Source: Actinomycetota bacterium (GTDB taxonomy: Bacteria > Acidobacteriota > Blastocatellia > Chloracidobacteriales > Chloracidobacteriaceae). Taken from it: a stretch of DNA of 10,132 bases. Shown one piece after another: positions 1-10,132 of this stretch. The notes under the pieces are model-generated. The model was not told the origin of the DNA. It ran no database searches and saw nothing but the letters and a program-made list of their open reading frames with translations. Location of the stretch: positions 1 through 10,132 of the forward strand of contig JAAFHI010000058.1 in assembly GCA_013298335.1 (NCBI GenBank). The letters run 5' to 3'. The position numbers were made by a program, and so were the translations under genes. Each line of letters begins with the position of its first letter. The first letter of the stretch is position 1.

Positions 1-1403
1 TCGGCCTGCACCATCGCGACCGCCGTGTTGTGGTGCGCCTGCCGCTCGGTGAAGAAATACCGGTCGCAGCGTCCGCCGATGGATTCGAGATTGGCGTAGG
101 TCCCGAACGCGCCTTCGCTCGGATGTGCGCGCAGTTTCGCGAAGGAGATCCGCAGCTCCGCGTCGCGCCACGTCTCCCCGATCGAGTACTGCCCGATGCC
201 GCGACCGAAGTGATGCGGCACCTGCTCACCCGACAGATCGACCAGTTTCCATGCGGGTGAACCGAGGGCAAAGTAATCGGCCACGTTTTCGACCGAGCGA
301 TTCGAAAACCACTCTTCGTAGAGGTTGCGCGCCTCGACCACCGTCACGTCGCGGCATCCGTTTTCATGAAGTACGGCGACGAGTTCGGCAAGCAGTTCCG
401 GGTCGCAGATGACCGACGTGTCGCGCCGATCGTAGCCCATCATGAACGATGTCTTGATGACGACCTTCAAGCATTCGACCGACACGGCGCGGCGTTCGGC
501 GCGGCGCGCAATCACGCCGGGCAGGCCGGATTCATCGAGAATCGCGCGAAATGACGCCAGTTTTTCGGCGCGGTCGGGATTCGGTTTCTTCGAATGCAGT
601 ACAAAAACGTCGCCGCCGTTGCCGACCGGATTGTCGGCGATGCTCGCGGCGCGGCGCTCGCGCGGCAGAAAGAATTCGCCGATTTCGGCAATGCGCGCTG
701 CGAGATCGTCCGCCGTCACGCCCGGCGCGAGCCGGTCTTCATCCGTCAGAACATCCGCCAGCAATTGAAAGATGCGGCGATGATTTTCTTCATCCGATTC
801 GATGCGGCGGAAATCCTCGATGAGCGACGCGGGCACGTCGGGGACGGTTTCGGCCAGCTTTACCAGCCGATTCCAGCACAGCCACGCGGTCCGCTCGGCG
901 TCCACGTTGAAGAGACAGAAATCGCGAAACGGCCCGTTGTCGAGCAGCGGCGCGACCGAACGCGGGACCTTGCCGAGCATCACGCCCGCCTTCGTCGCGA
1001 TGGTCGCCGCCAGCCGCGAGAGCGGCGCGGTCCGCCAGCCGACATGCTGCCGCACCGCCGCCGACCATCCGCCGACCGCGCCCGCGAACTGCGTCGCAAA
1101 TGCCTGTGCCTTCAGCAACGGACGCCCCAGTTTGAGAATCGCGCCGCGAATGTAGATCGCGTGCATTTCCTCGTCTTTCCACACCCAGACGAGCGCCTGC
1201 CGGATCAGGTCGCGGATTTCCTCGTCGAGCGGCATGGCCGCCAGATGCTCGGCAATGTTGGTTTCGCGGTAGCTGACGGCGACGATTTCCTCGCGTTCGA
1301 GCGCCAATAGAAAAAGGCGGATCATCTCGTCGCGCGGACGGTCGGCATACCGCTCGCGCCACAAGTCGAGGTCACGCTGAAATTCTTCGTAGATTCCGCC
1401 CAT
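1..1403 (-). CDS. Ferritin-like diiron domain fused to DUF362-like domain (3' end cut by window)
   Basis: The frame is open from an ATG at 1403 to the window edge, giving 467 codons with no stop, so the C-terminus is missing. Residues about 25-215 look like a ferritin-like four-helix diiron domain: a Glu-rich first helix (around E37-E39), an ExxH at E78-H81 (DEEMH), a third-helix glutamate near E170, and a second ExxH at E205-H208 (DEENH). From about residue 305 the protein resembles the DUF362 family (strand VVIKTSFMMG, then a Rossmann-like stretch ending VTVVEARNLYEEWF). DUF362 proteins are uncharacterised and often linked with Fe-S proteins; ferritin-like domains bind two metals and act as oxidases, oxygenases or iron stores. 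No signal peptide is visible, so it is probably cytoplasmic. There is no good Shine-Dalgarno before the ATG, so the start is the least certain part. It is transcribed divergently from the neighbouring esterase. The substrate is unknown. Confidence 0.72.
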   Translation of the reverse strand, partial: MGGIYEEFQRDLDLWRERYADRPRDEMIRLFLLALEREEIVAVSYRETNIAEHLAAMPLDEEIRDLIRQALVWVWKDEEMHAIYIRGAILKLGRPLLKAQAFATQFAGAVGGWSAAVRQHVGWRTAPLSRLAATIATKAGVMLGKVPRSVAPLLDNGPFRDFCLFNVDAERTAWLCWNRLVKLAETVPDVPASLIEDFRRIESDEENHRRIFQLLADVLTDEDRLAPGVTADDLAARIAEIGEFFLPRERRAASIADNPVGNGGDVFVLHSKKPNPDRAEKLASFRAILDESGLPGVIARRAERRAVSVECLKVVIKTSFMMGYDRRDTSVICDPELLAELVAVLHENGCRDVTVVEARNLYEEWFSNRSVENVADYFALGSPAWKLVDLSGEQVPHHFGRGIGQYSIGETWRDAELRISFAKLRAHPSEGAFGTYANLESIGGRCDRYFFTERQAHHNTAVAMVQA

Positions 1404-1608
1404 GGAATTTTCGATTCAGGAGTTCCGATTTCAAGCGGCAAGGTGACGTTCGTGAAAGCATACGGGGTATCGCCGGATTCGCGAAGTCGTCCGGACCGGT
1501 TTTCAGGGTCCGCTGGGCTTGCCGCCGCCGACCTCCGGTTGCGTAAAACCCGCGCCTTGACCGACAATCGCGCGGCCTTGATCCCCTCACCGCCGCGAGG
1601 CATTTTCG
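1404..1608. other. Divergent intergenic region between the diiron/DUF362 gene and the exported esterase
   Basis: This 205-base gap separates two divergent start codons and should carry both promoters. I see no convincing -35/-10 pair on either strand. The only clear signal is GAGG at 1597-1600, eight bases before the esterase ATG at 1609, a plausible ribosome binding site. No repeat or hairpin stands out. Confidence 0.4.
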
Positions 1609-2535
1609 ATGATCGTGAACTTCCCCAGACGAGCCCTCATCGCCGGACTGTTGTCGAGTCTGCTGCTTCCCTTCGCCATGAACGCCCAGGAAACAAAACC
1701 GCCCGTCGCCGGGCCGTCGCTCGGCGTGACCGGAACCGTCAGACACCATCCCGATTTCAAGGCGAAAACCATCGCCGCGCGCAACGTCGATGTCTGGCTG
1801 CCCCCGGATTACGAAAAGAACCCGAAGGCGCGCTACCCCGTCCTCTACATGCACGATGGACAGAACCTCTTCGACCCGGCCACGTCCTACGGCGGGGTGG
1901 ACTGGGCCATCGACGAAGTGATGACGCGACTCATCGCCGAGGGGAAAATCCGCCCGGCCATCGTCGTCGGCGTCTGGAATTCGCCGAAACGGTTCAACGA
2001 GTACATGCCGAAAAAGGCGATTCCGGCGGACTCCAAAATCGCGCTCGGCGTGCCGTCCAACCCGCACCCGGACGGGCCGATTCTCTCCGACGACTACCTG
2101 AAGTTTCTTGTTACGGAACTCAAACCCTTTATCGACAAGACCTACCGGACCAAAACGGGCCGCGCCGACACGTTCGTCATGGGATCGAGCATGGGCGGGC
2201 TGATTTCGGCCTACGCCATCAGCGAGTACCCGAACGTCTTCGGCGGCGCGGGCTGCGTCTCGACGCACTGGCCGGCGGGCGACGGCATCGTCATTGAGTA
2301 CCTGAAGAAATCGCTGCCCGATCCAAAGACCCACAAAATCTACTTCGACTTCGGCACGGCCACGCTCGACGCGCTCTACGAACCGTTTCAGAAACGGATG
2401 GACGACGTGATGCGGCAGGCGAACTATGTCGAAGGAAAAAACTGGATGACCCGAAAATTCGAGGGCGCGGAGCATTCCGAACGTGCCTGGCGTCAGCGGG
2501 TCGATATTCCGCTGACCTTTCTCCTGAAACGCTAA
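1609..2535 (+). CDS. Exported esterase-D-family alpha/beta hydrolase
   Basis: This is a 308-residue protein of the putative esterase (esterase D / enterochelin esterase-like, PF00756-type) family, which hydrolyses ester bonds; the substrate cannot be told from sequence. It begins with a secretion signal (basic MIVNFPRR, hydrophobic core ALIAGLLSSLLLPF, likely cleavage after MNAQ), so it should act in the periplasm or outside. Family motifs follow: DVWLPPDYEKNP near residue 61, YPVLYMHDGQNLFD at 76-89 and a GSSMG elbow at 192-196 with Ser194 as nucleophile. Asp247 (YFDFGT) and His289 (GAEHSERAW) are the probable triad partners. GAGG eight bases upstream supports the ATG. The DinB-fold gene follows after 25 nt, so the two are probably co-transcribed. 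A cytoplasmic relative lies about 1.7 kb downstream on the other strand. The fold assignment is secure; the biological role is not. Confidence 0.9.
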   Translation: MIVNFPRRALIAGLLSSLLLPFAMNAQETKPPVAGPSLGVTGTVRHHPDFKAKTIAARNVDVWLPPDYEKNPKARYPVLYMHDGQNLFDPATSYGGVDWAIDEVMTRLIAEGKIRPAIVVGVWNSPKRFNEYMPKKAIPADSKIALGVPSNPHPDGPILSDDYLKFLVTELKPFIDKTYRTKTGRADTFVMGSSMGGLISAYAISEYPNVFGGAGCVSTHWPAGDGIVIEYLKKSLPDPKTHKIYFDFGTATLDALYEPFQKRMDDVMRQANYVEGKNWMTRKFEGAEHSERAWRQRVDIPLTFLLKR

Positions 2536-2560
2536 CCCCCACCCCAAGGAGTCAATTCGC

Positions 2561-3058
2561 ATGACGACCGGAGATCTTCTTCGCACCGAATTCGAACAGG
2601 AAATGAGAACGACGCGGCGGATTCTCGAACGCATCCCGAGCGACAAGTTCGACTGGAAGCCGCACGAGAAGTCGATGGCGCTGGGCGGTCTGGCGGCCCA
2701 CATCGGCAACGTCCCGAACTGGGCGGTTTTCACCATCAGGCAGGATGAACTCGACCCCGGCTCGGTCAAAATGCCGCCGGTCACCTCGACCGAGGAACTG
2801 CTCGCGGCGTTTGACGCCAACGTCGCCGCCGGACTGGCGGCCTTCGACGAACTGACCGACGAACGGATCGCCGGGTCATGGTCGCTGCTCGTCCAGGGGA
2901 AACCGCTCTTCACGATGCCGCGCGGCATCGTGCTGCGGAAGTTCGTCTTCAGCCACCTCATCCACCATCGCGGACAGTTGAGCGTCTATCTGCGGCTGCT
3001 CGACGTGCCGGTGCCGTCGATCTACGGCCCGTCGGCGGATGAAAATCCGTTCGCGTGA
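2561..3058 (+). CDS. DinB-fold putative metal-dependent protein
   Basis: This 165-residue protein is a member of the DinB/YfiT-like four-helix superfamily. It shows the typical start (LLRTEFEQEMRTTRRILERIPSDKFDWKPHEKS), a first metal ligand at His47 (LAAHIGN) and the C-terminal HLIHHRGQLSVYLR helix. His132 and His136 complete the usual three-histidine metal site, and His135 is adjacent. Length and layout are normal for the family. Members bind Zn, Ni or similar metals; some are bacillithiol- or mycothiol-dependent transferases, but most, like this one, have no assigned reaction. The name comes from a DNA-damage-inducible Bacillus gene and does not imply DNA repair. AAGGAG at 2546-2551, nine bases before the ATG, fixes the start. 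It lies 25 nt after the esterase stop and is likely translated from the same message. Confidence 0.9.
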   Translation: MTTGDLLRTEFEQEMRTTRRILERIPSDKFDWKPHEKSMALGGLAAHIGNVPNWAVFTIRQDELDPGSVKMPPVTSTEELLAAFDANVAAGLAAFDELTDERIAGSWSLLVQGKPLFTMPRGIVLRKFVFSHLIHHRGQLSVYLRLLDVPVPSIYGPSADENPFA

Positions 3059-3088
3059 TTGTTTTTCACCCGCCCAGCCACTCCCAGC

Positions 3089-3508
3089 TTATGTCGAAAC
3101 GATCCGAGGCGGCGCAAAAACGATGAATGTCGGTGCCCAGGTCATTTGAGCGCCTGCCCAGATGACCTGAGTAACCGCCGAAATTGGTTGAATCCCTGCC
3201 GAAATGATTTGAACAGGCGCTGAAATGGTTTGAGCACGTGCCGAAACGACTTGAGCACCCGCTGAGGTCACTTGAACCACGGCTGAAGTCGGTTGAGCGC
3301 CTGCTGGAGCGAGTTGAGTAGGTGCTGAAATGACTTGAGCGCCTGCTGAAACGATTTGAACACACGCTGAAATGATTTGAGCGCCTGCTGAAGCGACTTG
3401 AGCACCTGCTGAAGTCACTTGAACCACGGCTGAAACGAGTTGTACCCGTACTGATGAAGGTTGAGACGGAGAAAACGGGATTCCATCCGTTTCCCTGATT
3501 CCCTTCAT
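3089..3508 (-). CDS. Doubtful heptapeptide-repeat ORF across the 21-bp minisatellite
   Basis: This 139-codon frame starts 4 nt after the stop of the small membrane-protein gene and runs through the whole minisatellite. Its translation is a seven-residue repeat of the type A-Q-V-I-S-A-G, with small and beta-branched residues and no recognised domain. Because every unit is exactly 21 bases, an open frame would persist once one unit is open. A second minus-strand frame is also open for about 99 codons, which weakens the coding case. The start lacks a properly spaced Shine-Dalgarno, and the non-repeat ends resemble no family I know. I keep it because the frame survives about 15 diverged units without an indel or stop. 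The likelier reading is a non-coding tandem repeat. Confidence 0.2.
   Translation of the reverse strand: MKGIRETDGIPFSPSQPSSVRVQLVSAVVQVTSAGAQVASAGAQIISACVQIVSAGAQVISAPTQLAPAGAQPTSAVVQVTSAGAQVVSARAQTISAPVQIISAGIQPISAVTQVIWAGAQMTWAPTFIVFAPPRIVST
3137..3451. repeat. 21-bp minisatellite, about 15 units, with 147-bp higher-order period
   Basis: Fifteen consecutive units of exactly 21 bases can be laid end to end with no indel; weaker units appear to extend to about 3116 on the left and 3472 on the right. On the plus strand each unit keeps a TGAA at positions 1-4 and a TTGA at 10-13 and nearly always ends in GC. TGA therefore recurs alternately every 10 and 11 bases, close to one DNA helical turn. 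Units at 3263-3283 and 3410-3430 are 20/21 identical. The three units before each also match their counterpart seven units away (17-18 of 21), indicating a 147-bp duplication. The array fills the gap between the DinB-fold gene and the leftward cluster. It is not a CRISPR array, since there are no unique spacers. Confidence 0.93.
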
Positions 3509-3512
3509 CCCC

Positions 3513-3779
3513 TCAAAAGGGAATTTCTTCCCGGCCCGGTTTTTTGTGAACCGCGATTCTCGCCACCAGCCACGCCCCGGTCATGAAAACGCCCGATACG
3601 CCAAGGAGAACCGCGTCGTACATCATCGACGGCGGTTTCCCGAACGGGTCGTGGTCATTGGCCATCTGCGCTCCCGCCGGGTCGAGCATCCCCAGCAGCG
3701 CAAACCCGGCGATCATCGCCCCGAGCCCAAACAGCGCCACTGCGCCGGTGATGCCGACCAGCATTCTGGAAGCCGTCAT
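3513..3779 (-). CDS. Small two-helix membrane protein
   Basis: This 88-residue protein has two hydrophobic segments that should span the inner membrane: MLVGITGAVALFGLGAMIAG and following residues near the N-terminus, and AVLLGVSGVFMTGAWLVARI near the C-terminus. Between them lies a polar stretch rich in Asp, Pro and Met (MANDHDPFGKPPSMMYD), and the tail is basic (HKKPGREEIPF). I do not recognise a family and no function is assigned. A GTG two codons upstream also opens the frame, but AAGGAG five bases before the ATG at 3779 favours the ATG. It lies 79 nt downstream of the cysteine-rich protein gene in the same direction, with a short palindrome in between, so co-transcription is possible but not certain. 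Confidence 0.72.
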   Translation of the reverse strand: MTASRMLVGITGAVALFGLGAMIAGFALLGMLDPAGAQMANDHDPFGKPPSMMYDAVLLGVSGVFMTGAWLVARIAVHKKPGREEIPF

Positions 3780-3784
3780 ACTCA

Positions 3785-3790
3785 CTCCTT
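3785..3790 (-). promoter_or_regulatory. Ribosome binding site of the small membrane protein
   Basis: AAGGAG on the minus strand, five bases from the ATG at 3779. It overlaps the alternative GTG (3783-3785), so it selects the ATG as the true start. Confidence 0.75.
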
Positions 3791-3803
3791 TCGGAAGACC
3801 CGC

Positions 3804-3823
3804 CCGCTACCGCAGGCGGTACT
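3804..3823. repeat. GC-rich palindrome between two leftward genes
   Basis: A short palindrome, TACCGC-AG-GCGGTA (3808-3821), sits between the stop of the cysteine-rich gene and the ribosome binding site of the membrane-protein gene. It resembles the dispersed intergenic palindromes common in some environmental bacterial genomes, but only one copy is in the window, so its repeat status rests on general familiarity. It has no following T-run and is not a classical terminator. Confidence 0.4.
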
Positions 3824-3858
3824 GACTCCGCGCTCAATGTCCCGCATTCCGCATTCGC

Positions 3859-4266
3859 TCACACCGCCGGGCGCGGCGGGCGTTTGCCATCGTGCTTCGT
3901 CAGGTATTCCGCCTGCAAGTCGCGAAAGTACGCCTCCAGCGACTGCTCGGTTTCCCGCCATGTGAATTCCTCGTAGGGAAGATACTGGCTGCATTCGCAG
4001 CAGAACGCCGTCCCGTCGTAGAGAAACGGGTCGGCGAGATAGCTCCGGACGTGATCCTCCGGCATTTCGGTGGTCACGCCGCATTTCGCGTGCTTGTACT
4101 GTTTCGGGACATCGTCGAGCGCGCCCTGAAACCGTTTCGCCGGTGCGAGCGTGATGTGGTCGGCGGCCTGGCCGTCCGGTTGGACCGCCGTGTGTTTTGC
4201 CTTGTGACCGGCATAAAACCACCGGAAGACCTGCTTGTGGCAGTACGGACAATGGATGAAGAACAT
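3859..4266 (-). CDS. Cysteine-rich, putative zinc-binding hypothetical protein
   Basis: This 135-residue protein has CPYCH at C6-H10, a lone cysteine at C62 (KCGVTTEMPEDHVRSYL) and a CCEC cluster at C89-C92 (FLYDGTAFCCECSQYLP). Paired cysteines about 80 residues apart suggest one or two structural zinc sites, but this is not a standard zinc ribbon I can name. The segment EMPEDHVRSYLADPFLYDG followed by Cys resembles conserved hypothetical proteins I associate with Planctomycetota and related soil bacteria; function is unknown. A C-terminal helix (ETEQSLEAYFRDLQAEYL) and a basic tail end the protein. No signal or membrane segment is seen, so it is probably cytoplasmic. Its Shine-Dalgarno overlaps the stop codon of the upstream esterase gene, so the two are almost certainly one transcript and may be translationally coupled. 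Confidence 0.82.
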   Translation of the reverse strand: MFFIHCPYCHKQVFRWFYAGHKAKHTAVQPDGQAADHITLAPAKRFQGALDDVPKQYKHAKCGVTTEMPEDHVRSYLADPFLYDGTAFCCECSQYLPYEEFTWRETEQSLEAYFRDLQAEYLTKHDGKRPPRPAV

Positions 4267-4277
4267 CCCCGCGATTA

Positions 4278-4283
4278 CTCCTT
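4278..4283 (-). promoter_or_regulatory. Ribosome binding site overlapping the upstream stop codon
   Basis: Minus-strand TAAGGAG: the TAA stop of the hydrolase (4284-4282) runs directly into AAGGAG (4283-4278). It lies 11 bases before the ATG of the cysteine-rich gene, slightly long, but no better start is seen. Such overlap points to coupling of the two genes. Confidence 0.65.
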
Positions 4284-5148
4284 ACATTTGTCGTGTACGT
4301 TTTTTCGGATACAGCTTCAACAGAATGCGCCCGACCCGGCGCGCCCAGTCGCCCTCGGTGTGCCGCGCGCCCCGGATTTCATGGCAGAACAGGTCGGACC
4401 TCAACTTCCACCCGTACGTGACGAGCAGATCGCGCATCAGGCGCAGACTCGCGATGCCGCTGCGGTGCTCGCGCGTCCCCATGTCGAGCCAGATGCGGAC
4501 GTTCGGTTTGCGCTTGAGGTTTTGAATCAGGCGGTAGGCCACGCCGTTATCCCACCACAGCGACGGCGAGACCGACGCGACCCGGCTGAACACTTCCGAA
4601 TGGTGCAGCCCGAGCAGCAGCGCGGCCAGTCCGCCGAGCGACGAACCGCCGATGCCGGTGAATTCCTGTTCCGGGCGGGTGCGGTAGTGCCCGTCGATAA
4701 ACGGCTTGAGTTCCTCGACGATGAACTTCCCGTACACCTGCAACTTGCCGCCCTGCCCCACGCCCCCGTCCACCGACGGCGTGTATTCGTCCATCCGGTG
4801 AACGCCCGTGTTCCAGATGCCGACGATGATGATCGGCTCCATTTTGCCCGCCAGAATCAGATCTTCGGCGGTCCGTCCCATTTTCCAGTCGTTGCCGCGA
4901 ATGAAGGCCGTGTCGCCATCGAAAAGGTTCTGTCCGTCGTGCATGTAAAGGACGGGATAGCGCCGCTCATGCTCCTGATCGTAGCCCGGCGGCAGATACA
5001 CGATGACGTTTCGGGCATGGTGCAGGAGATTCGAACCGAAATGGTTATGCATGCGGAAACCGCCCGCGTAGGAATGGGCATCGGCGGGAATTCCGGTCGG
5101 ATGAAAGGGCTGGTGCGAATCAAATACGTGTTTCTTGCGGCGCGGCAT
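4282..5148 (-). CDS. Cytoplasmic esterase-D-family alpha/beta hydrolase
   Basis: This 288-residue protein is a second member of the putative esterase (esterase D-like, PF00756-type) family. Motifs in order: NVIVYLPPGYDQE near residue 47, YPVLYMHDGQNLFD at 64-77, IIIVGIWNTG at 106-115, and a GSSLG elbow at 168-172 with Ser170 as nucleophile. Asp222 (WLDMGTREH) and His263 (GARHTEGDW) are the likely acid and base. Unlike its neighbour at 1609 it has a polar, basic N-terminus (MPRRKKHVFDSHQ) and no signal peptide. The 14-residue motif around HDGQNLFD is identical in the two, but other regions differ clearly, so they are paralogues or independently acquired relatives rather than a recent duplication. 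No Shine-Dalgarno is evident before the ATG. It heads a leftward cluster with the cysteine-rich gene directly after it. Substrate unknown. Confidence 0.88.
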   Translation of the reverse strand: MPRRKKHVFDSHQPFHPTGIPADAHSYAGGFRMHNHFGSNLLHHARNVIVYLPPGYDQEHERRYPVLYMHDGQNLFDGDTAFIRGNDWKMGRTAEDLILAGKMEPIIIVGIWNTGVHRMDEYTPSVDGGVGQGGKLQVYGKFIVEELKPFIDGHYRTRPEQEFTGIGGSSLGGLAALLLGLHHSEVFSRVASVSPSLWWDNGVAYRLIQNLKRKPNVRIWLDMGTREHRSGIASLRLMRDLLVTYGWKLRSDLFCHEIRGARHTEGDWARRVGRILLKLYPKKRTRQM

Positions 5149-5226
5149 AGGGGCGTCGGTCGGTTCGGCTTTCGAATTGTCGGGTAAGTTTCGAGCCTAT
5201 GTCGCGCCGCTTTTGAAAACAAGGCT

Positions 5227-5310
5227 TTGGACCGCGCGTTGGACCGCGCGCACCCTGCGCGCATGTCTTTTCTTTCTTCTACCCATGCGCGCAGGGTGCG
5301 CGCGGTCCAA
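5227..5310. repeat. Two 27-bp GC-rich repeats as a perfect inverted pair (long hairpin)
   Basis: A copy of the 27-bp element at 5239-5265 (beginning TTGGACCGCGCGCACCC) faces its exact reverse complement at 5284-5310. The 18-base spacer is pyrimidine-rich (TCTTTTCTTTCTTCTACC). A 12-base piece of the left arm, TTGGACCGCGCG, is also duplicated in tandem at 5227-5238. Each arm alone contains GCGCGC-ACCCT-GCGCGC and can fold on itself. The pair begins nine bases after the stop of the DUF4139 gene, so in that transcript it would form a very stable hairpin that could block 3' decay or help termination. It is a REP-like family; two further single copies lie at 7631 and 9813. Confidence 0.95.
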
Positions 5311-5319
5311 TGCGCTCCA

Positions 5320-7539
5320 TTACTTCAACGGGCGTTCGAACGCGATGGTTCGAATGAAGGCGTCGAGTTCGGCCTGTGCCGCGACCTGCTCGGCACGGGC
5401 TTTCTTCGCATCCCAACGCATTTGTTCGAGTTGCGATTCCTGCGCGTCGGCTTTCGCAACGTAGCGCATGATCAACTGTTTCGCTTCGACCTTGCCACCG
5501 AGCGCGGTGATGTTTTCCCGCAGCCGTTTCTGGTCGGTTTCGATGGTCCGGATTTCCTCGTCGGCCTGAAGGGCGCGGATTCCCGCGTCGTCCCGGCGCG
5601 TCCGGATTTCAAAAATCCGGTCGAAGAGTTTCCGCGACGGCTCGTCGAGGTAGTTGCGGTTGACGAACAGTTCCAGATCGCGGGTCGTCAGGTTCGCCAA
5701 CTCGTACGCATCCGCCAGTTTCAACTTCATCGTCACCGGCACGGTCTTCACCTCGCGCGGCGCAAGTTCAATCCGGAAACGGGCCGTTCCATCCTCGACC
5801 GACTCCGGTTTCGGAACGTCGTCCGTAAACTGCCACTTGTCGCGCATTGGAAAATCGAGGAACAGCGTTCGCGGACGGTCGGTCTGATTGGCGATGGTGA
5901 AGGTCGTCCGGTCATTGACCACGTAAATCGTCTCGAAACGACCGTTTTTGACCCGGACGAGCGCCACCGGGTCCTTCGTCCGCTCGTTTTTCTTCGTCAC
6001 CTTGGTGGCGAGATCGGTCCCGAAGCCGATGAACCGCTTTTCCTTCGGCTTCAACCGTTCAAGTTCGCCTTCCCCGCCGTAGGCATCGCCGTCAATTACG
6101 GTCAGCGGCCCGGCTTCGAGCGTCAATCCCGACGTGTTTTCGACGAAAAAGCCGTTGCGCGGACGCTCGCCGCCGGATTTGCCGTCATACAGTGACACCC
6201 GCTCGCCCGTCATTTCCTTCTGAACAATCGGAATCAGCGCCGAACGGTTGCGGGCGACCGTCACCGGCTGACCGACGCGGTATTCGAACAGATCGCCCGC
6301 TTCCATTCCCTCCGCCGCCGTATTCACCCCCGCGTCGCCGGTCCGCATCGCCTCGCCCAGATCGGCAATTGAGGTCCCCGCAAACCCGCTTTCCAGCGGT
6401 GCGTCCGGTGGCGGTGGCGGCGCGGCATCGCCGTACCCACCGGCGACACCGCCGGGGCGGCCACCGGGGACTCCCCCCGGAACACCACCCGGCATGCCTC
6501 CGACCATTCCGGCATTTGAATTCTCACCAAGAAGGCTCAAACGCTGCGGCGTCAGGTGGACGCCTTCCGGCAACGCCTTTTCTTCCCGGTACTTGAACAT
6601 CGGCTGCTGAAGCGGCTGGATGAACGACGTCGGATCGCCCGACACGAGCGAAAGCGCGACGCCGTTCCAGTCTTCCTCGCTCACGTTGTCCACAATCGCC
6701 CAGCCTTGAAAAAACGGCTTGCCCGCCTTGTCGAGCACCACGCGATAACTCGTTTTCCAGATCGGCGCGGCGATGGTGTAGCTCACGACCAGCTCGCGCG
6801 GGCCGGTTCCTTCGCTGGCGACGATGATGGTTTTCGACTCGCGGCGGCGTTCGGCGGATTTCGCCTCGGTGAACATTTTGATGTCGCGCCGCGTGTCACC
6901 GTCGATGACCTTCAATGAACGAATGTCCGAAAGATCAAAACTCGCCAGTTCCCCGTCGTCGCCCGAAATGACGAGGCGGCGGGTCAGCTTTCCGGCTTTT
7001 TCCGTTGAAGATTCACCATCGGATTCTTCCGCCGGGCGATCCTCGACGGTCAGAACCGCGCCGGTGACGCTTTTCGTCGCGCCGGTCACGGCGACGCGCG
7101 CACCCTGAAGTTTTTTGAGAATGGCAGCCAGTCCGGCGGGTTCGGCGGCGTCCACCGAAAAGGGAATTTCGTCGAGCCGCGCCTCGGCGGGCAGCGAGGT
7201 GTTGTAACTGACCGATTCAATTCGACCTTTCCCCAGATCGAGAACCAGCATCGACTTCAGAACGTCGTCAATCTGCGACTGTTTGAAGTCGAGCGCGATC
7301 TCGGCGCGACCGGTGACGGTCCCGCGCCGCTCGAAGTAGGCGACGCCGTTGCTGTAGAGCACGACGCGCTTCAACGGCAAAATCTGGCGTTCGGCGGAAG
7401 AAGTGGAGATTGCGGGCGGTTCAGCCGTCGCGACCGGACGCGCCGCGCGGGTCGTTCGCCGCTGCGCGAGCGCGGGCGTTGGGAGAAATGTACCGACGAG
7501 CGCCAGGGCGACGCCGGAAAGAAGCATTTTTTTCATCAT
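5320..7539 (-). CDS. Exported DUF4139-domain protein
   Basis: This 739-residue protein starts with a signal peptide (MMKKMLLSGVALALVGTFLP, likely cleaved after ALA), so it acts outside the cytoplasm. Residues 51-240 carry the N-terminal beta region seen with DUF4139 proteins (LKRVVLYSNGVAYFERRG, then DDVLKSMLVLDL). From about 250 to 620 is the DUF4139 domain proper: VSYTIAAPIWKTSYRVVLD, GWAIVDNVSEEDWNGVALSLVSG, then VKTVPVTMKLKLAD. It is interrupted at 338-378 by a Gly/Pro-rich linker (GGMPGGVPGGVPGG followed by a run of prolines). Residues about 650-735 form a charged helical tail likely to be a coiled coil. The family is widespread and uncharacterised, probably beta-sandwich-rich. Two in-frame ATGs occur (7539 and 7536) with no clear Shine-Dalgarno. 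The leader can pair with the start region, and a long hairpin follows the stop. It appears monocistronic. Confidence 0.88.
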   Translation of the reverse strand: MMKKMLLSGVALALVGTFLPTPALAQRRTTRAARPVATAEPPAISTSSAERQILPLKRVVLYSNGVAYFERRGTVTGRAEIALDFKQSQIDDVLKSMLVLDLGKGRIESVSYNTSLPAEARLDEIPFSVDAAEPAGLAAILKKLQGARVAVTGATKSVTGAVLTVEDRPAEESDGESSTEKAGKLTRRLVISGDDGELASFDLSDIRSLKVIDGDTRRDIKMFTEAKSAERRRESKTIIVASEGTGPRELVVSYTIAAPIWKTSYRVVLDKAGKPFFQGWAIVDNVSEEDWNGVALSLVSGDPTSFIQPLQQPMFKYREEKALPEGVHLTPQRLSLLGENSNAGMVGGMPGGVPGGVPGGRPGGVAGGYGDAAPPPPPDAPLESGFAGTSIADLGEAMRTGDAGVNTAAEGMEAGDLFEYRVGQPVTVARNRSALIPIVQKEMTGERVSLYDGKSGGERPRNGFFVENTSGLTLEAGPLTVIDGDAYGGEGELERLKPKEKRFIGFGTDLATKVTKKNERTKDPVALVRVKNGRFETIYVVNDRTTFTIANQTDRPRTLFLDFPMRDKWQFTDDVPKPESVEDGTARFRIELAPREVKTVPVTMKLKLADAYELANLTTRDLELFVNRNYLDEPSRKLFDRIFEIRTRRDDAGIRALQADEEIRTIETDQKRLRENITALGGKVEAKQLIMRYVAKADAQESQLEQMRWDAKKARAEQVAAQAELDAFIRTIAFERPLK

Positions 7540-7612
7540 GGTGGTGTTTTCGAATCGCGGGATGGAATGACGACGCGCAAATCACGCGCGCCTGCCCCGA
7601 TAGACACCACCA
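7539..7612 (-). promoter_or_regulatory. Possible leader hairpin pairing with the start codon of the DUF4139 gene
   Basis: On the minus strand, TGGTGGTGT (7612-7604) is exactly complementary to ACACCACCA (7547-7539), whose last base is the A of the first ATG. The loop would be 56 bases. If the transcript starts upstream of 7612 this pairing could hide the translation start. A poor -35-like TTGAAC with TCTATC 18 bases further on lies near 7600-7628 and is not convincing as a promoter. Chance occurrence is possible. Confidence 0.25.
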
Positions 7613-7630
7613 ACCGGAAAAAGTTCAAAA

Positions 7631-7657
7631 ATGGACCGCGCGCACCCTGCGCGCATG
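7631..7657 (+). repeat. 27-bp GC-rich REP-like repeat, left flank of the ATPase/HNH pair
   Basis: A single copy beginning ATGGACCGCGCGCACCC and ending GCGCATG, identical to the 5239 copy except for its first base. It lies ten bases after the stop of the HNH gene. Internal GCGCGC arms around ACCCT allow a small hairpin. The right-flank copy at 9813 is its perfect reverse complement. Confidence 0.93.
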
Positions 7658-7667
7658 CGTTGAAGTC

Positions 7668-8477
7668 CTACCAATCCAACGCTTCCGGCGCGCGGGCAAA
7701 GAGGTCGCGAAGCTCTTGAAGTTCTTGAATTCGTTGATGTTGACGCTTCATTTCGGCCCAGACGGTCGGATGATGCATTCGCTTTAACGCCGTGATGTAT
7801 CGGTTCGGTTGAACCTGGGTTGGAGTTTCATCACGCTCCTTCAAATACACAATTAAAAGCGCCCGGTAGCTTTCATAAGCACCCCTGCGAGCTTGAGGCA
7901 AAAGATTGTCGTTCAATCCGAGCGTCTCGATTGTGTATTCGGCCCGCTTCAAATCCCGTCGGCCCAGCCCTTCAACCGGCAGAAACACACACATGGGGAA
8001 TCGCAATTCGAGAACATTCAGCGGGTCTTCCTCCCTAGGATTCAACAACACCGGCATTCCGGCGACGGGAGGCAAAATCGCGGCATTCCGTTTTCTGGTT
8101 ACGTCCTTGAAAATCCGGCGTGGACCGGCAAAAACGGCGAACTTCTCCCCTTTGTTTTCCCTCCCGTTGCACAACTGGCAAACGAAAAGAAAGTTGCTCC
8201 ACTGAAAAACTGCCTCCGGGTAGAGGGTTTTCGGCTTGATGTGTTCAATCGCAATCGCGCAGGAGTCTTCGCAATAATGGCATCGCCGTGGTCCGGGGCA
8301 CATCTCGGCCAGTTTTTCCCGAACAATCCGGAAATTGGACCGATTTTTGTTCTTCCAGACCCGCTGAACATCGGAAACCCGGAACGGATAATCGCCACTT
8401 GCGTCAAAAATCCGCTGTTTTTCCTCAAGGTGACGGGCGATTTCCTCTGGAAGATCAGGAGCAAAAAGCCGAATCAT
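7668..8477 (-). CDS. HNH endonuclease, Septu PtuB-like
   Basis: This 269-residue protein carries a zinc-stabilised HNH nuclease core: CHYC at C66-C69, the catalytic-type E78-H79 (AIEHIKPK), N95 in FQWSN, and CQLCN at C100-N104 completing a four-cysteine site, then GRENKGEKF. The core resembles the TIGR02646-type HNH proteins that pair with AAA ATPases, including PtuB of Septu anti-phage systems, where the nuclease degrades DNA under control of the ATPase. About 60 residues precede the core; after it comes a longer helical region of about 160 residues (AEYTIETLGLNDNLLPQARR, then a Glu/Gln-rich tail). The ATG overlaps the ATPase stop as ATGA, so translation is probably coupled. The protein ends in TAG ten bases before a 27-bp repeat. 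The nuclease fold is well supported; the Septu assignment rests on gene pairing and core motifs. Confidence 0.82.
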   Translation of the reverse strand: MIRLFAPDLPEEIARHLEEKQRIFDASGDYPFRVSDVQRVWKNKNRSNFRIVREKLAEMCPGPRRCHYCEDSCAIAIEHIKPKTLYPEAVFQWSNFLFVCQLCNGRENKGEKFAVFAGPRRIFKDVTRKRNAAILPPVAGMPVLLNPREEDPLNVLELRFPMCVFLPVEGLGRRDLKRAEYTIETLGLNDNLLPQARRGAYESYRALLIVYLKERDETPTQVQPNRYITALKRMHHPTVWAEMKRQHQRIQELQELRDLFARAPEALDW

Positions 8478-9721
8478 CCTTTGCTCCCGTTCATCTTATA
8501 ATCCGAAGTCGGAAGCATCCTCCTCAACACATCCTGTTCCTTCTGTTCCTTCTTGGTCAGTCCCTTGCTCAGTTCTTTTCGGTTCAACTCAGCCAGCCGC
8601 ACCAATTTGGCTTTTGAAGCTTCGGAGCGGGCCACGTCACCGAAAAGTTCCGTGCCGTAGGCGTCCAGCACGTTGCCGTACACCAACCGGTTCAACTCGT
8701 CGCCGACGATCATGCGTCCGGTTTCGTCCGTGCCGGGTCTTGGGAGGCGAAAAACCGTGCCGTGTTCCGCCGCCTGACAGATGAGCGGACTGTGCGTCGT
8801 GACGATAAACTGCATATTCGGGAAGTACTTGCGGAACCACTGGCCGATTTTCCGCTGCCACGTCGGATGGAGGTGGGCGTCAACTTCGTCAATCAGGACG
8901 ACGCCGGGTTCGTCAACTTGAATGAATTTGTCCTTCAGAAAAATGTTGTGGTTTGGTTCTATGCGTCGATATTCGAGGGTGAGTTGACGAAGTAACTCAA
9001 AGGTTAGACTTAAGATTGAACGATATCCTTCACTTAAATTGAAAAGTGAGACTTTACACCCTCCTGCGTCGGTAAAAAGGATTTCATCTGAATTTACCTC
9101 CCTCATCCGAACTCCATAAGGCAGAAAATCTTCCTGGTTTATGAAAGTTAGTATGTCATCCAGAATCTCACCTTCTGGTCGGGACTCAAGTTGCTTGAAC
9201 TTCAAATCCTTTAGCCAATCTGGGCTATTTCCAAGTACTGCATTTAACTGAAAAAGACTTAGATGGCGGTCAATATCTGAATGGTACTGACTGGCACTTC
9301 CGCCTGTGAACCTTCGAAAAGATCCAAATGAGCAGGAAAAGGGTAAAAACTTTCCTGAAAGAGCATCCGCTAAAAAAAGACCATAAACTTTCTCTCGCCT
9401 GTTTTTCTCAATTACTTTCCCATCGCTAATTTCTAAATAGATAGGTTGTTCTTCAAACGCCCATTTTTGGACGTAAGATGGCTCCACTCTGATTCTGCCG
9501 CTTTCTTTTCCAAAACGAGGCCACGTCTCCCAATTCTCGGGCAGCCGCATTGCATCTGCTCCACCAACCAATGCCAACGCCACGGCCCGCAAAAACGTCG
9601 TCTTCCCCGATCCATTGTCGCCAATGATAACGTGCCAGCCGGCTTCCTGTCCGACGGGGACTTCCCAGCGGAGTTTTTGAATTGACTTGATGTTTTCGAT
9701 CTCGACCGACGTGATGTGCAT
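8474..9721 (-). CDS. ABC/SMC-type AAA ATPase, Septu PtuA-like
   Basis: This 415-residue protein is a RecF/SMC-like ATPase with all signature motifs: Walker A GDNGSGKTT at 34-42, ABC signature LSEGYRS at 229-235, Walker B VVLIDEVDAHLHP at 274-286 with E279, and a switch histidine at H310 (QFIVTTHSPL). The N-terminal strand (ITSVEIENIKSIQKL) is typical of the family. After the ATPase core the tail (DAYGTELFGDVARSEASKAK, then a Lys/Glu-rich helix) has no TOPRIM nuclease domain, so it is not an OLD/GajA enzyme. It is presumably the sensor or regulator of the HNH protein encoded next, as PtuA is for PtuB; PtuA proteins are usually somewhat longer. Residues about 80-260 are encoded by AT-rich DNA (39% GC over 9001-9180) whereas the ends match the host, suggesting transfer or domain exchange. 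A terminator lies 40 bases upstream, so it needs its own promoter in 9722-9760, which I could not identify. Confidence 0.86.
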   Translation of the reverse strand: MHITSVEIENIKSIQKLRWEVPVGQEAGWHVIIGDNGSGKTTFLRAVALALVGGADAMRLPENWETWPRFGKESGRIRVEPSYVQKWAFEEQPIYLEISDGKVIEKNRREKVYGLFLADALSGKFLPFSCSFGSFRRFTGGSASQYHSDIDRHLSLFQLNAVLGNSPDWLKDLKFKQLESRPEGEILDDILTFINQEDFLPYGVRMREVNSDEILFTDAGGCKVSLFNLSEGYRSILSLTFELLRQLTLEYRRIEPNHNIFLKDKFIQVDEPGVVLIDEVDAHLHPTWQRKIGQWFRKYFPNMQFIVTTHSPLICQAAEHGTVFRLPRPGTDETGRMIVGDELNRLVYGNVLDAYGTELFGDVARSEASKAKLVRLAELNRKELSKGLTKKEQKEQDVLRRMLPTSDYKMNGSKG

Positions 9722-9760
9722 GGCGGGTGTCCGTTTGTGGGAATTGATTCGGGCGGAGAA

Positions 9761-9794
9761 TACAAAAAAGCGGGGCGATTTTCACCGCCCCGCT
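9761..9794 (-). terminator. Intrinsic terminator of the acyl-CoA dehydrogenase gene
   Basis: On the minus strand AGCGGGGCG (9794-9786) pairs perfectly with CGCCCCGCT (9777-9769) around an eight-base loop, followed by TTTTTT. This is a textbook rho-independent terminator about 48 bases after the stop at 9842. It should insulate the ATPase/HNH operon from upstream transcription. Confidence 0.9.
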
Positions 9795-9812
9795 CAGGGT
9801 TGACCGTTCAGA

Positions 9813-9839
9813 CATGCGCGCAGGGTGCGCGCGGTCCAT
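9813..9839 (-). repeat. 27-bp GC-rich REP-like repeat, right flank of the ATPase/HNH pair
   Basis: A perfect reverse complement of the 7631-7657 copy. It starts two bases after the stop codon of the acyl-CoA dehydrogenase gene and lies before that gene's terminator, so it would be transcribed as part of its 3' UTR. Confidence 0.93.
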
Positions 9840-9841
9840 CG

Positions 9842-10132
9842 TTAAAGCTGGAACACCGGGTAGCCGTTCGTTTCGATGACGCGGTCGGCGATGCGGCGGC
9901 GCAGCGTGACGGTGTCGATCGGGTCGAACTTGGTGAAGCGCTTCACGGCGGCGAGCTGAATCCGCAGCGTGTCGCCTTCGGCGAGCACCGGCATGATCCG
10001 CTTGGCGGTCAGTTCGATGCGGCCCACGGCGTCGTTGATGAAGACCTGCGTCGCGTCGAGCAGGTCGCGGCTCTTGTCTTCGCCCGACCGTTCGACGGCC
10101 TTGAGCGCCCGCAGATAGCAGCTTTCCATCGC
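9842..10132 (-). CDS. Acyl-CoA dehydrogenase, C-terminal end only (5' part outside window)
   Basis: The frame is open to the right window edge, so only the last 97 or so residues are seen; the ATG at 10129 is most likely internal. The sequence (YLRALKAVERSGEDKSRDLLDATQVFINDAV, then RIMPVLAEGDTLRIQLAAVKRFTKFDPIDTVTLRRRIADRVI) resembles the helical extension that follows the catalytic core in a group of bacterial acyl-CoA dehydrogenases. Those are FAD enzymes making the first double bond in fatty-acid beta-oxidation. None of the FAD or catalytic glutamate motifs falls inside the window, so the call rests on recognition of this C-terminal helical stretch alone. It is followed by a 27-bp repeat and a strong terminator, so it is the last gene of its transcription unit. 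Confidence 0.58.
   Translation of the reverse strand, partial: AMESCYLRALKAVERSGEDKSRDLLDATQVFINDAVGRIELTAKRIMPVLAEGDTLRIQLAAVKRFTKFDPIDTVTLRRRIADRVIETNGYPVFQL

Follow-up and report, generated by a model that had tools for sequence, protein, structure and literature searches.

The window, by which we mean the whole stretch of DNA analysed (10,132 nt), comprises bases 1-10132 of a contig in a 5.1-Mb genome of 1093 contigs. Two adjoining genes on its minus strand, ptuA and ptuB, were studied. Both ORFs were complete at the positions given in the first-pass annotation, and the ATGA at their junction corresponds to a 4-nt overlap of ptuA and ptuB. The features of the locus are listed below.

7632-7657, plus strand: 26-nt palindrome, a dispersed repeat immediately following ptuB and terminator-like on the minus strand
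7668-8477, minus strand: ptuB, complete ORF for a 269-aa HNH nuclease with four Cys
8169-8282, minus strand: HNH motif region of PtuB, C66 to C103, including H79 and N95 (invariant columns)
8474-9721, minus strand: ptuA, complete ORF for a 415-aa ABC-type ATPase, Septu type I PtuA
9768-9795, minus strand: intrinsic terminator-like hairpin separating ptuA from the acyl-CoA dehydrogenase gene (stem of 12 bp, loop of 4 nt, T run; consensus match only)
9813-9838, minus strand: second copy of the repeat, upstream of ptuA and inverted relative to the first (repeat search)

Upstream, ptuAB is bordered by the C-terminal portion of an acyl-CoA dehydrogenase gene, and downstream by a gene for a DUF4139-like protein, a match that at 28.7 bits lies below the cut-off of 31.8. 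With a terminator-like hairpin before ptuA and a terminator-like repeat after ptuB, the pair may form a transcription unit of its own; the region holds 5 terminator-like sites, with 3.7 expected from shuffles. Elsewhere in the window, two esterase-family (PF00756) genes, at 1609-2535 (plus strand) and 4282-5148 (minus strand), lie ~1.7 kb apart in opposite orientation, and a DinB-like gene adjoins the former. A tandem 21-nt repeat was found at 3066-3508 on the minus strand (10 overlapping 147-nt windows in register), and an ORF in this stretch (3089-3508, 139 aa) shows a 7-residue repeat with abundant SAGAQ-like units. The stretch may encode a low-complexity protein or be non-coding.

The full set of ABC-type ATPase motifs that had been described for PtuA was confirmed. 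Walker A (GDNGSGKT, G34-T41 with K40; 9596-9622, minus strand) and the ABC signature are followed by Walker B (VVLIDE, residues 274-279; 8885-8902, minus strand) and a later histidine, H310, and G37, G39, K40, S230, G232, D278, E279 and H310 are invariant among 104 aligned sequences. The description of PtuB as a four-cysteine HNH nuclease likewise held, with C66, C69, C100, C103, H79 and N95 invariant in 92 aligned sequences. The H79-N95 spacing equals that of the H75-N91 pair which, according to passages of PMC13096335, Septu EcB88 requires. The single-chain predicted folds of both proteins matched Septu and retron PtuAB chains, and all 9 PDB chains found with the PtuB fold at E<=0.001 are Septu or retron PtuAB entries.

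Searches with the PtuA and PtuB profiles gave E=2.1e-130 and 434 bits for the ATPase with PADLOC PtuA1 (PDLC00269), and E=3.7e-85 and 284 bits for the HNH protein with PtuB1 (PDLC00340), with residues 1-269 aligned on 1-268 of 268. The first-pass annotation had read the pair as a Septu relative, possibly a divergent subtype. While the former is borne out by the profiles, the conserved gene pairing and the predicted folds of both proteins, the latter is rejected because each protein is matched along almost all of its length by its PADLOC model. The two grounds offered for divergence turned out to be real but ordinary: the ATPase does have 415 aa, but the PADLOC model is 446 long and the 120 listed matches span 414-579 aa, and the HNH protein does carry a helical C-terminal extension (helices from residue 173 onward in the predicted structure), but this is normal for the subfamily, whose PADLOC model is 268 long.

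Co-occurrence of the two genes was examined at 80 loci (L024-L103). A PtuB match lies directly 3´ of ptuA on the same strand at 79 of them, 76 by the distance rule and three where the ORF had been called from a start farther upstream; some of the PtuB ORFs at these paired loci are short or split (in the locus comparisons, L044, L061, L081, L091, L092 and L095). The one unpaired locus, L082, has a ptuA without a detectable ptuB downstream. The 4-nt overlap is common to 36 of the 80 loci. The identity of ptuAB as a Septu pair is nearly certain.

What the first-pass annotation, sound as to Septu, did not contain is the mosaic structure of ptuA, for which the following subdivisions are needed.

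9590-9721, minus strand: constant N-terminal end of PtuA, residues 1-44, including Walker A (identity to the related proteins P0098 and P0099, GC3)
8909-9589, minus strand: core of PtuA, read as exchanged, residues 45-271 by the identity edges (identity and GC3)
8954-9520, minus strand: AT-rich block in the core, residues 68-256 (GC3 segmentation)
9017-9037, minus strand: ABC signature LSEGYRS, residues 229-235, within the exchanged core (sequence; S230 and G232 invariant)
8507-8908, minus strand: constant C-terminal end of PtuA, residues 272-405, including Walker B (identity strings)
From residue 361, minus strand: PtuB-linked tail of PtuA, which PtuB divergence tracks

The composition of ptuA changes sharply along the gene. 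Measured in 30-codon windows, GC3 ranges from 0.60 to 0.87 inside residues 1-60 and 256-405 and from 0.27 to 0.47 inside residues 76-270; in residues 1-45 it is ~0.7, and five other genes of the window have 0.74-0.90. A two-breakpoint model delimited residues 68-256 as a block (support 48-70 and 246-280) with GC3 of 0.33 compared to 0.71 outside, at a log-likelihood ratio (LLR) of 29.7 against a maximum of 10.3 in 200 shuffles. Four of five control genes of the window, ptuB included, stayed within their own shuffles (30 each); the fifth, the esterase gene at 4282-5148, gave an LLR of 11.7 compared to 8.5 in 30 shuffles, with a middle that is GC-richer. In the window gene, GC3 of the ends exceeds that of the core by 0.39, more than at any other of the 81 loci (3157 of 3160 pairs used in the locus comparison). 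The contrast is smaller in Septu type I at the other 80 loci, where the next value is 0.26 and the mean 0.058 (sd 0.075).

Identity to the nearest relatives changes in the same gene. Among the best 120 of 4241 matches to residues 272-405, only P0098 (94%), P0099 (92%) and P0097 (90%) are close relatives of the C-terminal end, the next standing at 76%. Compared over the ends and the core (residues 60-268), the window protein and P0098 are 0.98 and 0.50 identical, and the window protein and P0099 0.98 and 0.38, while P0097 is alike throughout (0.98 and 0.93). The edges are abrupt, at 44/45 and 271/272 against both P0098 and P0099, and residues 1-44 show one difference to each of these two. The window ptuA is thus a mosaic both by composition and by identity to the nearest relatives, and the origin of the core (~45-271) differs from that of the Walker A end and of the Walker B and C-terminal end. 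Replacement of the core is well supported by GC3 together with protein identity. In a tree of cores, the window protein and P0097, P0098 and P0099 form one clade (support 90) with very long branches, so that the donors may have been relatives, and a far donor is not shown; this clade could possibly reflect long-branch attraction or related donors drawn from one pool.

An exchange of the same kind was seen at the nucleotide level in another lineage. L077 (Chromatiaceae ppb02) and L081 (Lamprocystis) share a chromosomal locus at which blastn found 96.8% identity over 718 bp upstream and 90.5% at the start of ptuA, then 690 bp inside ptuA without a match. Beyond this gap, identity returns at 93.1% for the stretch that starts in the Walker B region and reaches into ptuB, and stands at 92.9% for the next 827 bp, which begin inside ptuB. 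The two loci differ by indels as well, a point on the other side: L081 lacks two stretches present in L077, one of 278 bp before ptuA and one of 427 bp within ptuB, and the latter absence makes the L081 ptuB look broken. In a third genome, the locus L124 (contig of 600 kb or more) combines ends near those of L077 with a core that is 95-99% identical to that of L081 in each segment over residues 67-271. Both L077 and L124 have a full-length ptuB, that of L124 lacking internal stops and being 89.6% identical to that of L077.

Fourfold silent sites reveal the same contrast. Between L077 and L081, 71 of 87 sites agree in the ends (82%) and 13 of 47 in the core (28%; p=1.4e-9), and between L077 and L124 the counts are 67/88 and 14/47 (p=3.2e-7), while the unswapped comparison of L077 with L074 gave 38/75 and 46/83 (p=0.63). 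Breaks fitted against L077, in window residue numbers, fall at 66 and 272 for L081 and at 61 and 274 for L124. The 3´ breaks thus lie at the Walker B strand, within three residues of the edge seen in the window family. A sister relationship of the L077 and L081 cores was rejected by the AU test (p=0.00135), while in the tree of ends L077 and L074 as sisters were not rejected (p=0.453). Collectively, these data show that the core at the Chromatiaceae locus was replaced in place by recombination.

A scan of silent sites was extended to 97 distinct ptuA genes, 16 of 113 sequences having been dropped as identical, in which 42 of 4656 pairs were eligible (silent identity of 0.6 or more in ends or core, with a minimum of 40 and 20 sites). 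Ends and core differ after Bonferroni correction in five of the 42: L081-L077, L124-L077, L129-L025, L038-L040 and L124-L081. In L038-L040 and L124-L081 it is the core that is the more similar part, and L129-L025, from the Myxococcaceae search, shows a smaller block (54-122). Four further pairs (L032-L140, L129-L127, L143-L144 and L046-L052) reached p<0.01, yet stayed above the Bonferroni limit. Pairs that combine conserved ends with cores at ~70% nucleotide identity, among them L038-L140, L140-L138, L136-L140 and L104-L105, were discarded as swaps, the silent-site difference not being significant. At the protein level, a comparison of the window protein and 120 matches (7260 pairs) gave ends and core identities of 0.95 and 0.43 for P0106-P0156 and of 0.95 and 0.52 for P0111-P0148, in the group of the Acidobacteria protein P0106. 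Judged from these sequences, mosaic PtuA recurs in Chromatiaceae; the signals from the P0106 group and from the Myxococcaceae search are weaker or smaller.

Two other arrangements of the core were noted. P0144 and P0180 (579 aa each) have a TIR domain (PF13676) inside the core, at residues 110-223 and 110-227, and are Septu-like ATPases that may carry a second effector. The genome of L074 carries a second ptuA-like copy, L115/L123, in which the matches to both ends (query 1-88 and 213-439) are separated by ~125 bp and stand in different frames, which looks like a loss of most of the core.

We considered whether the PtuA core, instead of being swapped, might simply evolve faster in place, under diversifying selection by phages and with the Walker ends constrained. 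The core is indeed less conserved throughout the family, with a mean of 0.50 in the fullest bin, in which the ends are at 0.70-0.75, and the grouping of the four window-family cores would fit such divergence. However, near-identical ends with a core at 38-50% fall far off the relation on which the window protein and P0097 sit, and selection on the protein alone would give neither near-saturated silent sites, as in the cores of L077 and L081, nor a GC3 step, as in the window gene. One and the same core in L081 and L124, with another in L077 between similar ends, also speaks against it. We consider faster evolution in place unlikely, and replacement of the core is preferred.

The core that is replaced holds a hypervariable loop, the helices of residues 149-194 and the ABC signature. 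The tail, in contrast to the core, varies with the effector: PtuB identity correlates with tail identity in PtuA (r 0.68; 0.60 as a partial correlation given the core, reached by 0 of 500 permutations), while the partial correlation with the core given the tail is 0.11, reached by 35 of 500 (79 loci, 3078 pairs; L067, the same as L066, and L082, without PtuB, left out). Linkage through closeness on the DNA could add to the correlation of PtuB with the tail. In L124, the effector gene ptuB is retained despite the changed ptuA core. In passages of the literature on relatives, PtuA and PtuB are described as forming a complex, with tRNA-Tyr or DNA cut upon phage infection. Given residues in the window pair that we regard as equivalent, nuclease action upon infection is our best guess for it by analogy.

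In light of these observations, we hypothesize that the core, although it also includes the ABC signature, would serve recognition of the trigger and the tail contact with the effector. PtuA would control PtuB, which would cleave nucleic acid upon infection; the exchangeable core would sense the phage trigger, while the C-terminal tail would contact PtuB. Crossovers in or near the conserved blocks encoding Walker A and Walker B could then swap in a divergent core and leave motor and effector intact. We put forward, tentatively and in the knowledge that it may well prove wrong, that Septu shifts its recognition by such cassette swaps at a fixed locus, with the Walker blocks as crossover arms, the tail and PtuB constant and the core as the sensor. 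An in-place swap of one part of PtuA, with the nuclease and the remaining ATPase kept, would indicate where recognition may lie, and L077 and L124, as natural chimeras, differ far more in the core than in the rest of ptuAB.

How the operon came to its present place is a separate matter. At E<=1e-60, ptuA was found in 4 of 162 genomes of the host's class, the window's own included, and in 1 of 396 sampled genomes of the phylum, again its own (at most a few candidates were scored per genome); ptuAB is sporadic in the class. The DUF4139-like gene is present in 3 of 14 genomes of the order searched, the window's own and two others, and in those two none of the eight other window genes searched lies beside it within the 16-17 kb around, so that neither offers a readable empty site. 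No relative was found in viral contigs scanned with a four-sequence alignment, three phage records gave partial matches (E<=1e-10), and nine plasmid records matched at E<=1e-20, all with <60% identity. A viral origin was set aside, these scans suggesting no phage-borne copy. A swap of the effector in P0097-P0099, considered for want of a PtuB partner, was also dropped: only 4 of the 120 ATPase contigs had a PtuB match, so that absence beside these three is uninformative.

The inverted copies of the 26-nt repeat at 7632-7657 and 9813-9838 enclose just ptuAB and could be read as the borders of a mobile cassette through which the operon arrived, in keeping with the absence of ptuA from nearly all relatives. 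However, the repeat occurs at 49 places in the genome at <=2 mismatches (none in a backward control), among them several inverted pairs tens to hundreds of bases apart, and at the two other repeat loci whose ORFs were examined it adjoins ordinary-looking ones. The window itself has further copies at 5240-5265 (plus strand) and 5284-5309 (minus strand). We set the cassette aside as quite unlikely because the repeat is dispersed. It is REP-like, and a REP/RAYT-like system is possible; Y1_Tnp (PF01797) has five matches in the genome, one of them sharing contig C350 with a copy of the repeat.

The pair might instead supply the effectors of a type I-A retron with its reverse transcriptase and msDNA elsewhere, as PtuA and PtuB match the folds of retron Ec78 and Ec83 chains as well as those of Septu and TIGR02646 is a retron-linked HNH model. 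The HNH protein scored 35 bits with TIGR02646, below its cut-off of 52, and the NCBIfam retron Ec78 models gave 118.1 of 500 bits for PtuA and 43.5 of 150 for PtuB, both far below their cut-offs. No reverse transcriptase match was detected in ten window proteins, including the neighbours on either side, and no Rfam match at gathering scores; the neighbours are instead the acyl-CoA dehydrogenase and DUF4139-like genes, and terminator-like sites flank ptuAB. We therefore regard a retron as very improbable and the window pair, from its sequence, as a free-standing Septu (PADLOC type I). Models for the ATPase-HNH part of type IV methyl-directed restriction (PADLOC mREase_IV) match both proteins, but with 146 and 46 bits compared to 434 and 284 for PtuA1 and PtuB1, which cover them almost end to end, this assignment is hardly credible, and no other characterised pair in the PADLOC list scored better. 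Taken as a whole, a free-standing Septu operon with a mosaic ptuA, including the mechanism put forward here, is in our view the probable explanation.

The window pair resembles Septu type I in gene order, ABC motifs, the four-Cys HNH, lengths and predicted folds. Sequence identity to E. coli Septu PtuAB (PDB 8ee4, 8eea, 8sux) is ~21%. The pair shares the PtuA and PtuB folds with the effectors of type I-A retrons (Ec78/Eco7, Ec83), whose PtuA chains align from residue 45-64, whereas the window PtuA begins at the ATPase. An RT gene lies beside ptuAB in retron type I-A and Septu type II, and the window proteins scanned contain none. According to passages of the sources, PtuA and PtuB assemble as a 6:2 hetero-oligomer (review PMC12948488), the PtuAB of Ec83 is freed upon msDNA degradation (PMC12948488), that of Retron-Eco7 depletes tRNA-Tyr, and the targets are tRNA-Tyr for Septu EcB88 (PMC13096335) and DNA, as reported, for the Septu of ATCC25922. 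A trigger for the free-standing system was not found stated in the passages of the Septu literature. Exchange of the PtuA core was not found reported in titles and abstract openings on Septu, PtuA, retron PtuA structure, antiphage sensor diversification and defence-gene recombination, two structural papers on Septu and retron-Septu lying outside this scope; the nearest idea among these (PMC10907252) is targeted hypermutation of putative antigen sensors.

A further Septu member is itself routine; the mosaic history of PtuA is not. A parallel lies in type I restriction, where target recognition domains of HsdS are exchanged between conserved flanks and recombination in place thereby replaces the part that sets specificity. 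HsdS and PtuA are alike in their conserved flanks, their exchangeable part and recombination in place. They differ in that HsdS is a DNA-binding subunit, while the core of PtuA lies inside an ABC ATPase, where a role in specificity is one that we infer. If this is true, an ABC ATPase would join the defence proteins that diversify through exchange of a specificity module.
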